A stretch of DNA of 21,903 nucleotides, taken from positions 1 through 21,903 of the IMG/VR virus record IMGVR_UViG_3300025860_000100, one strand, 5' to 3'. Below the pieces are notes generated by a model, which was not told the origin of the DNA, did no database searches, and worked only from the letters and a program-made list of their open reading frames with translations. Below, piece after piece: positions 2,502 through 21,903 of this stretch. Numbering within the stretch: position 1 is the first letter of the stretch; every line of letters starts with the position of its first letter. Origin of the DNA: a virus. A program made the position numbers and the translations under genes.

Positions 2502-5500
2502 ATGGGATTTGTTGCATCTCCAGAAACACAGCTGCTAGGCAAAAAAACAGTTTATACTCCTGAAATAGATGAGCAGCAAGCTCCTTCTTTCGGGGAAGTC
2601 GTTGGCGCTGCGTTTAGGCAAGAGAACATTATCGGAGCTTTTTCTATTAGAGAAGTTGGCCTGCCTGACACTAAAGATAACCCGTCATTTGATGCTTATT
2701 CCATGTTTACAGAGGAAGAGAAGAATGATCAGGCTTTTGTATCAACCGCACTGTATGCTGACGATGAAGATGAGTTAGAAGCTACCCGCAAGCAGATGAG
2801 CAGAGAGCGTCAGGACAGAGACACTATTGCCAGAGGTGGCGCTACCGGAATGATTATGAGTGGCGTTGCCGGTGTAATGGATCCTATTTCACTCATCAGT
2901 ATTGGCGGTGTAGCTGTCAACACTTATCGGGCAGGCAAAGGCATACTTAGTAGCGCTGCCGTTACAGGCTCTGTTGTAGCCGCTGAAACAGCCCTTGTAG
3001 AGGCCGCCTTACACACCCAGCAACTGACTAGGACGTTTGATGAGTCTGCCATTAACATTGGCGCTGGAACGCTCTTAGGGGGTGTTCTAGGGGGTACTGT
3101 ACAGCTCTTGCCTAGATACGGAATTGATGAGACGGTTATTCGGGAAATGGCTGACATTATGGAGGTTGAGCCTAAGATAGCTGAAGGTATTAACCCTGCA
3201 ATTAACGCTAAGACTGGCCCTGTAGGTGAAGATAGTGTTGGTGCTGCCCGTGTAGTTATAGGCGATGTTCAGGTTACGGGTAAAACTGCTAGATTCTTAA
3301 CTGACAAGCTAGGTTTTGACCCTTTGTCTAGGGCGCTTACTAGCAAGTCGCCAATAGTCAGAAGGCTTGCAGCAGAGCTGGCAGAAAGCCCTATCATGCT
3401 AGATAACTTTACCGGCCAAGCTGTTGAGTCATTAGCTAAAATTAAGAGTGGAAAGCTGTACAACTCGATAGACAATAACAATAAGTTCTACGAGCAGTAT
3501 ACAAAGTCTGGCGCTCCTAAAATGAAACGGCGTGATTTTAACGAAGCTGTATCTAGAGCCATTAGAACTGGGGAAAGCGACATTCCTGAGATTAAAGCCT
3601 CTTCTGATTTCTGGCGCAAAGAATTATACGATCCTTTGAAGAACGAAATGATTGAGCTAAAGATGCTGCCTGAAGATGTTGATGTCAGTACTTCTGTAAA
3701 TTACCTTAACAGAGTGTATAGCTCAGGCAAGATAGACGCTAATTACCCGCAGTTTATTACTAAGGTTTCTGGCTGGCTGCAAAAGAAAGATTTTGATCTA
3801 TATGAGCAGGCTAAGATTGCATCTTCCAAAGTTGCAAAAGCTGAAGGAAAAGAAAAGGCAGACCTTCAGGCAATTATAGATAAAGCAGAATACAAGTCTG
3901 GTAGAGACTTTGAGGCGCAGGACTATGATGATATTGCAGCGCAGATTGCCCAAAGAATTAAAGGCTCGCCTGGCGGCAGGCTTCCTTACGACTGGAAGAT
4001 GGGTGAAGGCACAGCAAAAGTAGGTAAAGTAAACGCGTTACGCGGCCCTCTCCGCAAACGAACCTTTCAAATTGATGATGAGATTATTGAAGAGTTTTTA
4101 GAGAATGACATTGAGGTCTTGGGTGCCAGGTATTTACAACAAACTGCTGCTGACATTGAGCTGACCAGGAAGTTTGGAAGCGTGGATATGGTTGATCAAA
4201 TTCAAGCAGTTAACAGGGAGTATAGAGATAAAGCCAATGGTATTACTGATCCAAAAAAGCGTGCTGAATTAGAGAAAGAAAGGAACGCTGACATCCGAGA
4301 CCTTAACGGAATGCGTGACAGGATGCGTGGAGTATATGGTTTTCAGGAAGATAACATATGGACTCGTATTGGACGATCGTCACGCGACCTTAACTATTTA
4401 AGATTGCTTGGAGGTGTAACCATATCCAGCTTTCCAGATGTTGCTCGCATTGTTATGGCAGAAGGTTTTGCCAAGACATTCAGTAAAGGCTTAGCTCCGT
4501 TAATCTCTAACACTAAAAACTTTAAAATTGCCGCTAGTGAAGCGAAGAGCTGGGGAATTGGCACTGACGTTTTAATGGCCGGTAAATCTGACGTTATTGC
4601 TGACGTTGGCGATTACGTTTCTGGTGGCACTGCTGTTGAAAGAGCATTAAGATCAGGCGCTAACAACTTTGGTAAGATTAACTTCCTTGACCGCTGGACT
4701 TCAGGAATGAAGCAGCTACACGCAGTAACCATGCAAACCTCTATCTTTGACGGGTTGTCTAAAGGCAAGTATGACAAGCGCCTTGGACGACTAGGGATTG
4801 ATAAGCAAGCTGCTAATGACATGATGGCTCAGGTTGTTAAACACGGGAAAAACGAAGATGGCGTGTGGATAACAGGCGCTAAGAACTGGGATCGCCCAGA
4901 CTTGGAGCGTATGTGGGCCGTAGCTATGAGAAAGGAATCTGACCGTGTCATTATTATGCCAGGTCAGGAGAAACCTTTATTTATGTCTTCAGAGATGGGT
5001 AAGACTATCGGACAGTTTAGGTCTTTTATATTGTCTGCTACTCAGCGTGTATTTATTGCTGGAGTGCAAAATCAAGATCATAACACTATGGGCGGCATTA
5101 TTTCGCTAGTAGGAATGGGAGCATTCTCTTACGTCATTAAACAGCAGCTTGCAGGCCGTGAAGTAAGTGAAGATCCGGCAGTGTGGATAACTGAAGGCAT
5201 TGATCGTTCTGGCGTTCTTGGGATTGTAGGTGAGATTAACAATACCATTGAGAAGATTTCTAGCAACTCGGTAGGGCTTAGGCCTTTACTGGGGATTAGT
5301 GCGCCAGCATCGCGCTTTGTGTCTCGCAGCGTTTCAGAGTCGATTTTAGGGCCAAGCTTGGGCAGTCTCTTGAGCACTACTGTTGCAGCAAGTAACGCCC
5401 TTTCATCGTCAGGGCCAATGACAGACTCTGACATTAGAACTTTAAGAAGATTGATTCCATTGCAGAATCTTAGTGGTGTAAACAAAATATTTGACGAGAT

Positions 5501-13562: not shown

Positions 13563-14351
13563 CTAATCTGCCCATGATGTATCGGTTAATTGTTGGTGTA
13601 TAGACTGATCTCTAATTGAATCAGTTTTAGTTTCTTTCTTTGCAGTCTTATTTGACTTCTCTCTAGCACCCCAAGACCCAATAGTCTTTGGCCAAGAGAT
13701 CATCTTGTTCTTTCCAATTCTCCAGCCATTAGCCTCGTAGTGATGCCAGAAGACAGAAGGATCTATTCCAGAACCTTTCCTGTTGCAGTATTCAATGACC
13801 TCATCCAGAGTTGGCGGGACAAAACGCTTAACCGGCTTATCCTCTGGTTCGTCAATAACTACTACTTCATGTTCAACTTCTTCTTCGAGAGCTGGGGAAC
13901 TTGTTTCCCCCCTATTATCTGTAATATTAGATGTAGTATTAGATGTAGTATTAACTATTAAGTTTTCTTGGGTAGGGTCATTAAGTTTTCTTGGGGAGGG
14001 TATTAAGTTTTCTTGGCTACCCTCATTAAGTTTTCTTGGGGAGGTGGGTAAGATTTCTTGCATAGGGTTATCGACCAACTTCAAGTACCTGGCTTGGATC
14101 TGCTTAGTGCCTTCTTTGTACTGTAGTTGTCTTGTGATGTACCCACAATCGACCAGTGAACTGATCCACTGGCTAACTGAAGTCTCTGTCTTGCCATAAA
14201 GATCAGCAAAATAGGCATTACGCGCCCAGCAGTAACCTTTATCGTTGCACAGAGCAGTGATTTCCCCATATAAAAGTTTAGCGTTAGCCGTTAAACGTAC
14301 GTCATAGCGGACGCTTGCAGGAATGATGGCGTAATACCCTTTGCTATTCAT
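13563..14351 (-). CDS. Phage replication initiator / replisome organiser (lambda O-like)
   Basis: A 262-residue protein started by a TAATG overlap with the regulator gene. Residues about 8-92 form a winged helix (YDVRLTANAKLLYGEI, then NAYFADLYGKTETSVSQWI and a wing GYITRQLQ), as in the N-terminal origin-binding domain of phage replication proteins. Residues 98-132 are a low-complexity linker of PRKLN and QENLI units encoded by DNA iterons; an acidic stretch EEEVEHEVVVIDEPED follows. The C-terminal domain (178-230: FVPPTLDEVIEYC, FWHHYEANGWRIGKNKMISWPKTIGSW) is the segment common to many phage DnaD/O-type proteins. I infer that it binds the iterons inside its own gene and recruits the helicase machinery, as lambda O does; family assignment is by pattern. 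Confidence 0.8.
   Translation of the reverse strand: MNSKGYYAIIPASVRYDVRLTANAKLLYGEITALCNDKGYCWARNAYFADLYGKTETSVSQWISSLVDCGYITRQLQYKEGTKQIQARYLKLVDNPMQEILPTSPRKLNEGSQENLIPSPRKLNDPTQENLIVNTTSNTTSNITDNRGETSSPALEEEVEHEVVVIDEPEDKPVKRFVPPTLDEVIEYCNRKGSGIDPSVFWHHYEANGWRIGKNKMISWPKTIGSWGAREKSNKTAKKETKTDSIRDQSIHQQLTDTSWAD
13918..13956. repeat. AT-rich tract with 12-bp tandem repeat beside the iterons
   Basis: TATTAGATGTAG is repeated at 13925-13936 and 13937-13948, followed by a further TATTA. The segment is strongly AT-rich and lies directly next to the last iteron, where lambda ori has its easily melted region. It encodes the NTTSNTTSN stretch of the initiator. Duplex-unwinding function is inferred. 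Confidence 0.55.
13957..14061 (-). repeat. Five iterons inside the replication gene: lambda-type origin candidate
   Basis: On the minus strand the 15-mer CCAAGAAAACTTAAT occurs four times without change (14039-14025, 14016-14002, 13994-13980, 13971-13957), with a degenerate fifth (GCAAGAAATCTTACC, 14061-14047). Starts are 22, 23, 22 and 23 bases apart, about two helical turns. Each unit has a partial dyad (AAG-AAAA-CTT). Inverted GAGGGT (13996-14001) and ACCCTC (14019-14024) flank the unit at 14002. Since 22 and 23 are not multiples of three, the same DNA is read alternately as PRKLN and QENLI. An AT-rich tract follows at once, as in lambda ori. Confidence 0.8.
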
Positions 14352-21005: not shown

Positions 21006-21323
21006 CTACTCGCAAAGGTTGCCATCAAGATCATCAAAAGCAAAGATACACGCATTGAACAGGGTTGCGTATGCTAACTTGCAGGCGTAATCATTAAAGG
21101 TGGCAGCCTCAAATCCGATTTCGTGCAGTTGCTCTTCTCCGTCCTCTGTATCGCATTGCTGGCACAACTCTATTGCTTTATAAGTATAGATTACACACTC
21201 ATGACCATCGCACGTTTGGTGCATATAATCGTACACGTCCATGCCATGGTTTAAGAATTCTGCCTCAGCATCTTTGGCGATCCGGATTGCTTCCTGCTCT
21301 AATTCATATTGATTGTTTATCAT
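21006..21323 (-). CDS. First gene of leftward operon, acidic, unknown function
   Basis: A 105-residue, strongly acidic protein with TAGGAG upstream of the ATG. It is helical and Cys-rich: ELEQEAIRIAKDAEAEFLNHGMDVYDYMHQTCDGHECVIYTYKAIELCQQC, and later ACKLAYATLFNACIFAFDDLDGNLCE. The seven cysteines lack zinc-ribbon spacing. The acidic character fits DNA mimics or host-binding early proteins, but nothing specific supports this. First gene after a promoter candidate in the origin-like gap. Confidence 0.65.
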   Translation of the reverse strand: MINNQYELEQEAIRIAKDAEAEFLNHGMDVYDYMHQTCDGHECVIYTYKAIELCQQCDTEDGEEQLHEIGFEAATFNDYACKLAYATLFNACIFAFDDLDGNLCE

Positions 21324-21370
21324 TGTTAACTACTCCTAGTTATTAAGTGCCGTTTATTCGGCGTGGGAGC

Positions 21371-21400
21371 ATTCTAATACTACCCATTGCCATAAAGCAA
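21371..21400 (-). promoter_or_regulatory. Leftward promoter candidate
   Basis: Minus strand: TTGCTT (21400-21395), 18 bases, TAGAAT (21376-21371). Transcription would start near 21364, giving a leader of about 40 bases with TAGGAG before the first leftward gene. Moderate -10, weak -35. Confidence 0.35.
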
Positions 21401-21420
21401 ATAAGAATGTGTTTTTTTAT

Positions 21421-21476
21421 GAATATAGACCAATAACTGATTAAATAATGATCAATCTGTACAAATAATGACCAAT
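21421..21476 (+). repeat. Three iteron-like direct repeats in AT-rich DNA
   Basis: GACCAAT (21428-21434), GATCAAT (21450-21456) and GACCAAT (21470-21476), each preceded by an AT-rich run; the last two share TAAATAATGATCAAT / CAAATAATGACCAAT, 13 of 15. Spacings are 22 and 20 bases, about two helical turns. The third unit overlaps the -35 area of a promoter at 21481. They could be binding sites of a phage regulator or initiator. Confidence 0.55.
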
Positions 21477-21480
21477 GTTG

Positions 21481-21489
21481 TGGTAGAAT
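21481..21489 (+). promoter_or_regulatory. Extended -10 promoter candidate, rightward
   Basis: TGGTAGAAT is TG-n followed by TAGAAT, a close extended -10. The expected -35 place is occupied by repeat unit three. Transcription would run through the DnaA-box array toward the gene at 21852, with a leader of about 350 bases. Confidence 0.4.
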
Positions 21490-21693
21490 CGGGCTAATGA
21501 AATCAAGGGGTTAAATCTAAAGAAAGGGATTAGATAGGTTATAGCACATAATATCGCTCTCATGATCTCAGGGAACCATTAAAACGGTGCATAAACTGTA
21601 GTAAGTGGGCCTAATCTATACGATGGCATAGATACCTTTATGGTATGGCAATAATGCGCTGTATAGGTGGATAGAAAGAGGCCTTTAATAACC

Positions 21694-21770
21694 TGTGGAT
21701 AAGTGTGGGCATAAGCTGGGGATAAGTGTGTGCATAAGCTGTGGAAAAGATGTGGGTAAGCTGTGGAAAA
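21694..21770 (+). other. Seven phased DnaA-box-like 9-mers
   Basis: All in the same orientation and within one mismatch of TGTGNATAA (complement of TTATNCACA): 21694 TGTGGATAA and 21729 TGTGCATAA are exact; 21706 TGGGCATAA, 21717 TGGGGATAA, 21740 TGTGGAAAA, 21751 TGTGGGTAA and 21762 TGTGGAAAA have one change. Starts are 12, 11, 12, 11, 11 and 11 bases apart, leaving 2-3 bases between boxes. This is the gap seen in arrayed low-affinity DnaA sites of E. coli oriC and lets DnaA oligomerise on one face of the helix. Confidence 0.75.
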
Positions 21771-21851
21771 GAGGCACCCCCTCCCCGAAGCGTGGCATGT
21801 GAATGGTATATATGTCTCTCTCAAAAAAAAATTACCAATTATAGGTGAAGC

Positions 21852-21903
21852 ATGATTAGAATTATTTGCGATGAAGAAGCTCATGAAAGTGACATTGAGT
21901 TGA
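21852..21903 (+). CDS. Start of a rightward gene, 3' partial
   Basis: An open frame from ATG at 21852 to the window end, 17 codons: MIRIICDEEAHESDIEL and on. AGGTGA lies about five bases upstream, a good ribosome site. The visible part is an acidic start with no motif. Only the start is present, so no function can be assigned. Its location beside the DnaA-box array makes a replication gene plausible. Confidence 0.55.
   Translation, partial: MIRIICDEEAHESDIEL

Follow-up and report, generated by a model that had tools for sequence, protein, structure and literature searches.

DnaA starts chromosome replication, and in the arrays of bacterial oriC strong boxes occupy the edges, weak boxes the interior, and gaps of 2-3 bp separate them. 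DnaA boxes in phages are already known. According to the available portion of PMC13250531, the injection stop signal region of T5 contains repeats, inverted repeats and DnaA boxes; these boxes lie in a phage non-coding region, as do those described here, and in T5 that region is terminal. In the T5-like phage Shivani, a few scattered exact boxes fall within the annotated terminal repeat. For the basal unwinding system of bacterial origins, the part of PMC8287927 available to us describes a need for DnaA-trios at no more than ~16 bp from a box. Little came from the accessible parts of PMC11512268 and PMC3931495: an Ori-Finder prediction and a cos site that is unrelated.

The stretch of DNA analyzed here (the window, 21,903 nt) is the entire virus record of a marine phage and probably a fragment; a search of named phages for a near match to it found none. 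The features relevant to this study are:

13563-14351, minus strand: replication initiator gene (HTH_36; PHROG replication initiation families), from profile matches.
13957-14060, plus strand: about four iterons of ~22-23 bp with a TTAAGTTTTCTT core, inside the initiator gene, from the repeat finder; a related repeat occurs in contig L075.
21443-21476, no strand assigned: two direct repeats AAATAATGATCAAT, the second copy with one mismatch, conserved in L002-L004.
21694-21770, minus strand: DnaA-box-like array of seven 9-mers, consensus TTATNCACA, from box matching, repeat finder and shuffles.
21777-21790, plus strand: C-rich core CCCCCTCCCCGAAG of a constant element, found upstream of TerL in 44/62 usable relatives.
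21807-21831, plus strand: second half of the constant element, made up of TATATATGTCTCTCTC and an A9 tract, 16 nt past the C-rich core.
21852-21903, plus strand: first part of a 61-aa ORF that the contig end truncates; relatives continue with the small terminase and TerL.

Searching the minus strand of the window for TTATNCACA-type boxes recovered the seven same-orientation 9-mers with 2-3-nt gaps described in the sequence-only reading. Two are exact and five carry one mismatch, with starts at 21694 (exact), 21706, 21717, 21729 (exact), 21740, 21751 and 21762. Start-to-start distances are 12, 11, 12, 11, 11 and 11 nt, the gaps measuring 3 or 2 nt; Tandem Repeats Finder reports the array as 3.7 copies of a 23-bp unit, equal to two boxes. 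This spacing of 11-12 bp bears out the proposed phasing and recurs in other phages, and the single orientation and helical spacing are those of other DnaA-box clusters. Across the whole window, boxes with at most one mismatch number 20 against 25.3 expected, so the total is not elevated. The cluster itself, with 7 boxes per 80 bp, is denser than chance, as had been claimed: dinucleotide-preserving shuffles, 200 of the whole window and 5000 local, yielded a maximum of 3. The surrounding gene-free stretch also stood, extending from a minus-strand ORF (21006-21323) to the ATG at 21852 and overlapped solely by a mechanical ORF on the opposite strand. An eighth near-match reported at 21586 did not survive comparison: L003 and L004 do not share it, and chance is its best explanation.

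Because the window is the whole record, the gene at 21852 is truncated by the contig end. The metallophosphoesterase and the small terminase led to relatives that show what follows: the 61-aa ORF, a small terminase of 124 aa and a TerL of 486 aa. The small terminase (TerS), which had no PHROG or Pfam match, is named by position and size; TerL of the window's relatives, also without PHROG or Pfam matches, is named through its BLAST relatives, among which the best named one is the TerL of BcepC6B (51%). The array of the window-like contig L204, which also encodes TerS and TerL, is identical in every letter. A further relative, L421, whose TerL is 83% identical, has both boxes and the C-rich element and comes from a Piscirickettsiaceae MAG (GTDB), a weak pointer to the host. 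BcepC6B and Ss1 were set aside as models for the genome termini, since neither has a DnaA array and neither yielded genome ends. In Ss1 and VA-RY-3 (L229 and L231), both distant TerL relatives, a GGGGGAGGGGGT tract lies upstream of a terS-like gene in the opposite orientation, without DnaA boxes.

The constant element (21777-21831) begins 6 nt past the last box and consists of CCCCCTCCCCGAAG, 16 nt, TATATATGTCTCTCTC and A9. We searched for it at 80 viral TerL loci, leaving out 12 loci from genome contigs. At 62 of the 80, at least 480 nt upstream of TerL made the locus usable; the other 18 fell short. The combination of C-rich run, TATATATG and A-tract was present upstream of TerL in 44 of these 62 and absent by pattern from 18. 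The adjacency to terS and TerL looked for in a cos or pac site was thus found for the C-rich element, the array itself being optional. In 12 of 13 family arrays, 4-8 nt separate the final box from the C-run, against 23 nt in L225; reversed arrays sit farther off, at 17 nt in L206. The window holds a single copy of the element, and its TATATATG box is 45 nt upstream of the start codon. In L421, the TATATATG part is altered, with C-run, A-tract and several boxes retained. In the otherwise very similar phage L002, array and constant element are duplicated in tandem (5147-5410). Other motifs were also seen in this region: upstream of TerL in L349 and L370, another phased repeat, GTCAAGATCAAGACAAAAG, stands ahead of the same C-rich element where the array would be; a phased repeat GTCAAGATCAAGAC lies at that place in L349; a TGTATGGAT-type motif lies upstream of TerL in the array-less L395 and L397; and a TGTATGGATGTACAG-like motif recurs near the C-rich element (L395, L397, L366 and L418), sometimes beside DnaA boxes.

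The constant element is probably either a packaging recognition or cleavage site or a late promoter. If it were the promoter, DnaA bound in the leader could act as a transcription switch that represses or activates the late operon. This would suit the short fixed distance between the array and an element whose TATATATG box lies so near the start codon, as well as the conservation of the upstream AAATAATGATCAAT repeats at 21443-21476, themselves a candidate operator or promoter of the divergent early/late region. We nevertheless consider a switch unlikely. No sigma-70 promoter was found in 21300-21903, the element is single-copy, L421 is without the TATATATG box, reversed arrays are tolerated, and the arrays of T7-like and Arthrobacter phages sit at genome ends. 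Searches for Rfam RNAs and tRNAs found none.

The array, defined as four or more boxes of which one or more must be exact, is an optional module that phages gain, lose and flip. Among the 44 TerL relatives bearing the element, 14 have it (12 forward, 2 reversed) and 30 do not; counted with the latter are L351 and L352, whose chains hold two reversed boxes each, and L378, where reversed boxes are scattered. On the TerL tree, its presence and absence require at least eight changes, five of them forced by well-supported branches. L418 illustrates a clean difference between near-identical phages, with an array of ~100 bp between the terS stop and the C-run that is missing from L416 and L417, whose flanks otherwise match. 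Within family arrays, boxes are spaced by 11 or 12 bp only, and exact boxes are concentrated at the edges (16/22, against 10/43 inside; p 0.0002). The contrast persisted in a less redundant set of nine arrays (13/18 against 9/36; p 0.0013), although both p-values are optimistic because the arrays are related by descent. It was absent from general phage arrays, which had been selected for exact boxes (first 27/29, last 21/29, inner 62/76).

These comparisons bear on whether the 9-mers merely resemble DnaA boxes and are bound as an operator by a protein of the phage, either TerS or a regulator. The array does adjoin terS, and some relatives have other phased repeats there, such as GTCAAGATCAAGAC in L349. 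The first 75 aa of TerS, however, are identical at all 75 positions between the array-bearing L204 and the array-less L212 and L214, and the N-termini of L203 and L205 (forward array) equal those of L206-L208 (reversed), so the TerS N-terminus is the same with no array, a forward one or a reversed one. Nor did the array sequence track TerS, the behavior looked for in a cos or pac site. The same 9-mer arrays moreover occur in unrelated phages, including a microvirus. An operator for TerS was rejected, as its N-termini are independent of array state, and an operator for any phage protein appears highly improbable. Being optional and accompanied by unchanged TerS N-termini, the array is not a terminase operator and probably not an essential origin.

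The sequence-only reading had also offered a second origin driven by host DnaA, as one possibility beside DnaA titration and a transcription switch. At such an origin, DnaA would melt nearby DNA and load the helicase of the host in the manner of oriC. Strong boxes at the edges, weak ones between them and 2-3-bp gaps do resemble oriC, the AT-rich segment 21807-21851 is close by, and the subset of window proteins that was scanned comprises an initiator and recombination proteins with no polymerase or helicase, making use of the host replisome likely. The window array and the basal unwinding system share tandem boxes with such gaps. On the C-rich side, in none of the 13 family arrays do three or more NAN trinucleotides follow one another within 28 nt, and no DnaA-trios lie within ~16 bp of a box; on the other flank, three NAN are reached only in the window, L363, L002 and L218, and are unconserved. 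An origin of the oriC kind would also be expected in all close relatives, whereas this array flips orientation, is missing from 30 of the 44, and is absent or reversed beside near-identical terminase genes. The proposal found no support here; we rejected it as the main reading and regard it as quite unlikely.

The phage's own origin is more probably of the lambda type, at the iterons. These repeats lie inside the initiator gene at 13563-14351, the arrangement of a lambda-type iteron origin, which the array at 21694-21770 does not share; the DnaA array is 7.6 kb away and has a different motif. A repeat related to the window iterons is present in L075 (6590-6670). A connection between the iterons and the C-rich element through a common CCCTCCCC was dropped, since the L075 repeat is without CCCTCCCC, and GC skew was discarded as evidence for an origin because it tracks gene strand.

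Similar arrays are widespread. In viral contigs, the tandem exact-box pattern occurred in at least 120 stretches, against 2 for the same pattern reversed, and exact tandem pairs were spaced by 11 (70), 12 (59) or 13 (21) but never 10. Among the matches listed, 228 pattern loci yielded 106 non-redundant arrays, of which 78 were intergenic, that is, mostly outside ORFs of at least 80 aa. A C5 or G5 run lay within 60 nt of 24 of these 78 listed intergenic arrays, compared with 8.2% of 3040 control positions in intergenic DNA; A6/T6 runs were barely enriched (23.1% against 18.8%). TerL was detected with phrog_2, a model that misses the TerL type of the window's own group, in 45 of 113 searched contigs (17/35, 16/50 and 12/28), 7 of the 113 being redundant with others. 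Of these 45 contigs, 24 (4, 14 and 6) had the array no more than 2 kb upstream of TerL, and none had it within that distance downstream. This count overstates the link, because non-coding space alone predicts 11.0 of 21: in the 21 contigs whose locus and contig coordinates agree, 18 had the array at most 2 kb upstream (P 0.0004). Among contigs of at least 18 kb, just 4 of 17 did. Enrichment of the array upstream of TerL is therefore moderate.

Several named phages carry comparable arrays at their ends. The T7-like P483, A7 and phiEap-1 have TGTGGATAA arrays beside a C-run, and presence again varies within the genus. In the Berlinviruses P483 and A7, the array falls between two sequence landmarks; in BA14, Kvp1 and FE44, which have no array, these delimit the annotated terminal repeat. 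In phiEap-1, five exact boxes, farther apart than those of the window, lie in a repeat found at both record ends. These T7-like phages differ from the window in their direct terminal repeats, T7-type gene order and an array downstream of TerL, as in P483. In the Arthrobacter phages Seahorse, Tiff81 and BillyTP, 2-4 boxes following an HNH gene end ~50 nt before the right record end; in Seahorse and Tiff81 they are followed by a G/C-rich tract with CCCCCTCCCTCCC, and BillyTP likewise has right-end boxes. At the right ends of the Arthrobacter phage records (L233, L442 and L443), boxes and then a G/C-rich tract lie ~50 nt from the linear end. Their actinobacterial hosts and the HNH gene beside the array set these phages apart, and no sequence kinship to the window was seen. 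The marks of a T5 injection stop signal, a long terminal repeat in a T5-like phage, were not found for the window: neither its gene content nor its TerL relatives are those of a T5-like phage; unlike Shivani, it has a compact phased array beside a C-rich element before terS, and different gene content. A genome-terminus role for the array region in the window's own group would be borrowed from other phages.

Microvirus mar39 (L238, 777-842) carries four exact tandem boxes and two weaker ones just after its replication-initiator gene. Microviruses are not known to have a terminase; a terminase therefore cannot be the common binder of these arrays. Arrays that are optional, orientation-free, rich in boxes and widespread could instead act as a sponge, many phage copies titrating DnaA and halting host initiation. 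We find this very unlikely, as it leaves unexplained both the 4-8-nt distance to the C-run and the association with C/G-runs.

Taken by its letters, the array would work like a DnaA-box cluster, and we do not class it as oriC, cos, pac or an injection stop signal. Host DnaA probably binds it in vivo. The reading we prefer, at a probability of about 0.45, is that the array is a swappable docking site through which DnaA acts on the adjacent constant element and modulates packaging or late-operon control. The array abuts the element and separates the early genes from the packaging/late operon. DnaA would fill it as a filament in phase with the helix, starting from the consensus boxes at its edges, and the filament would alter the shape or accessibility of the neighboring element. 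The array would then be an accessory, neither the core of the site nor the main origin. IHF assists lambda cos, and DnaA may by analogy aid the neighboring element here. This docking reading draws on the 4-8-nt distance to the C-run, the DnaA-type spacing, the exact edge boxes, the optional presence, the TerS N-termini shared across array states, the position upstream of TerL, the nearby C5/G5 runs and the arrays in terminal repeats and near record ends of other phages. Against it stand the 30 of 44 relatives without an array, the modest excess upstream of TerL, the low share (4 of 17) in contigs of at least 18 kb, the P483 array downstream of TerL and the greater distance of reversed arrays from the C-run.

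Our literature searches found neither an optional, flippable DnaA array that adjoins a constant element ahead of terminase genes nor the recurrence of DnaA arrays in terminal repeats and near record ends; with the exception of the T5 injection stop signal, they found no such phage role of DnaA. The natural pairs, with the array present or absent and forward or reversed, make its role directly testable. Tentatively, and with more doubt than for the docking reading itself, host DnaA filaments and a C/G-run may form a swappable module that marks the packaging start or genome ends in many unrelated phages. A recurrent, optional array beside packaging genes or in terminal repeats would give DnaA a role in phage biology; if the module reading is true, DnaA would be a host factor that acts in processing genome ends, in packaging or in entry instead of in starting replication.
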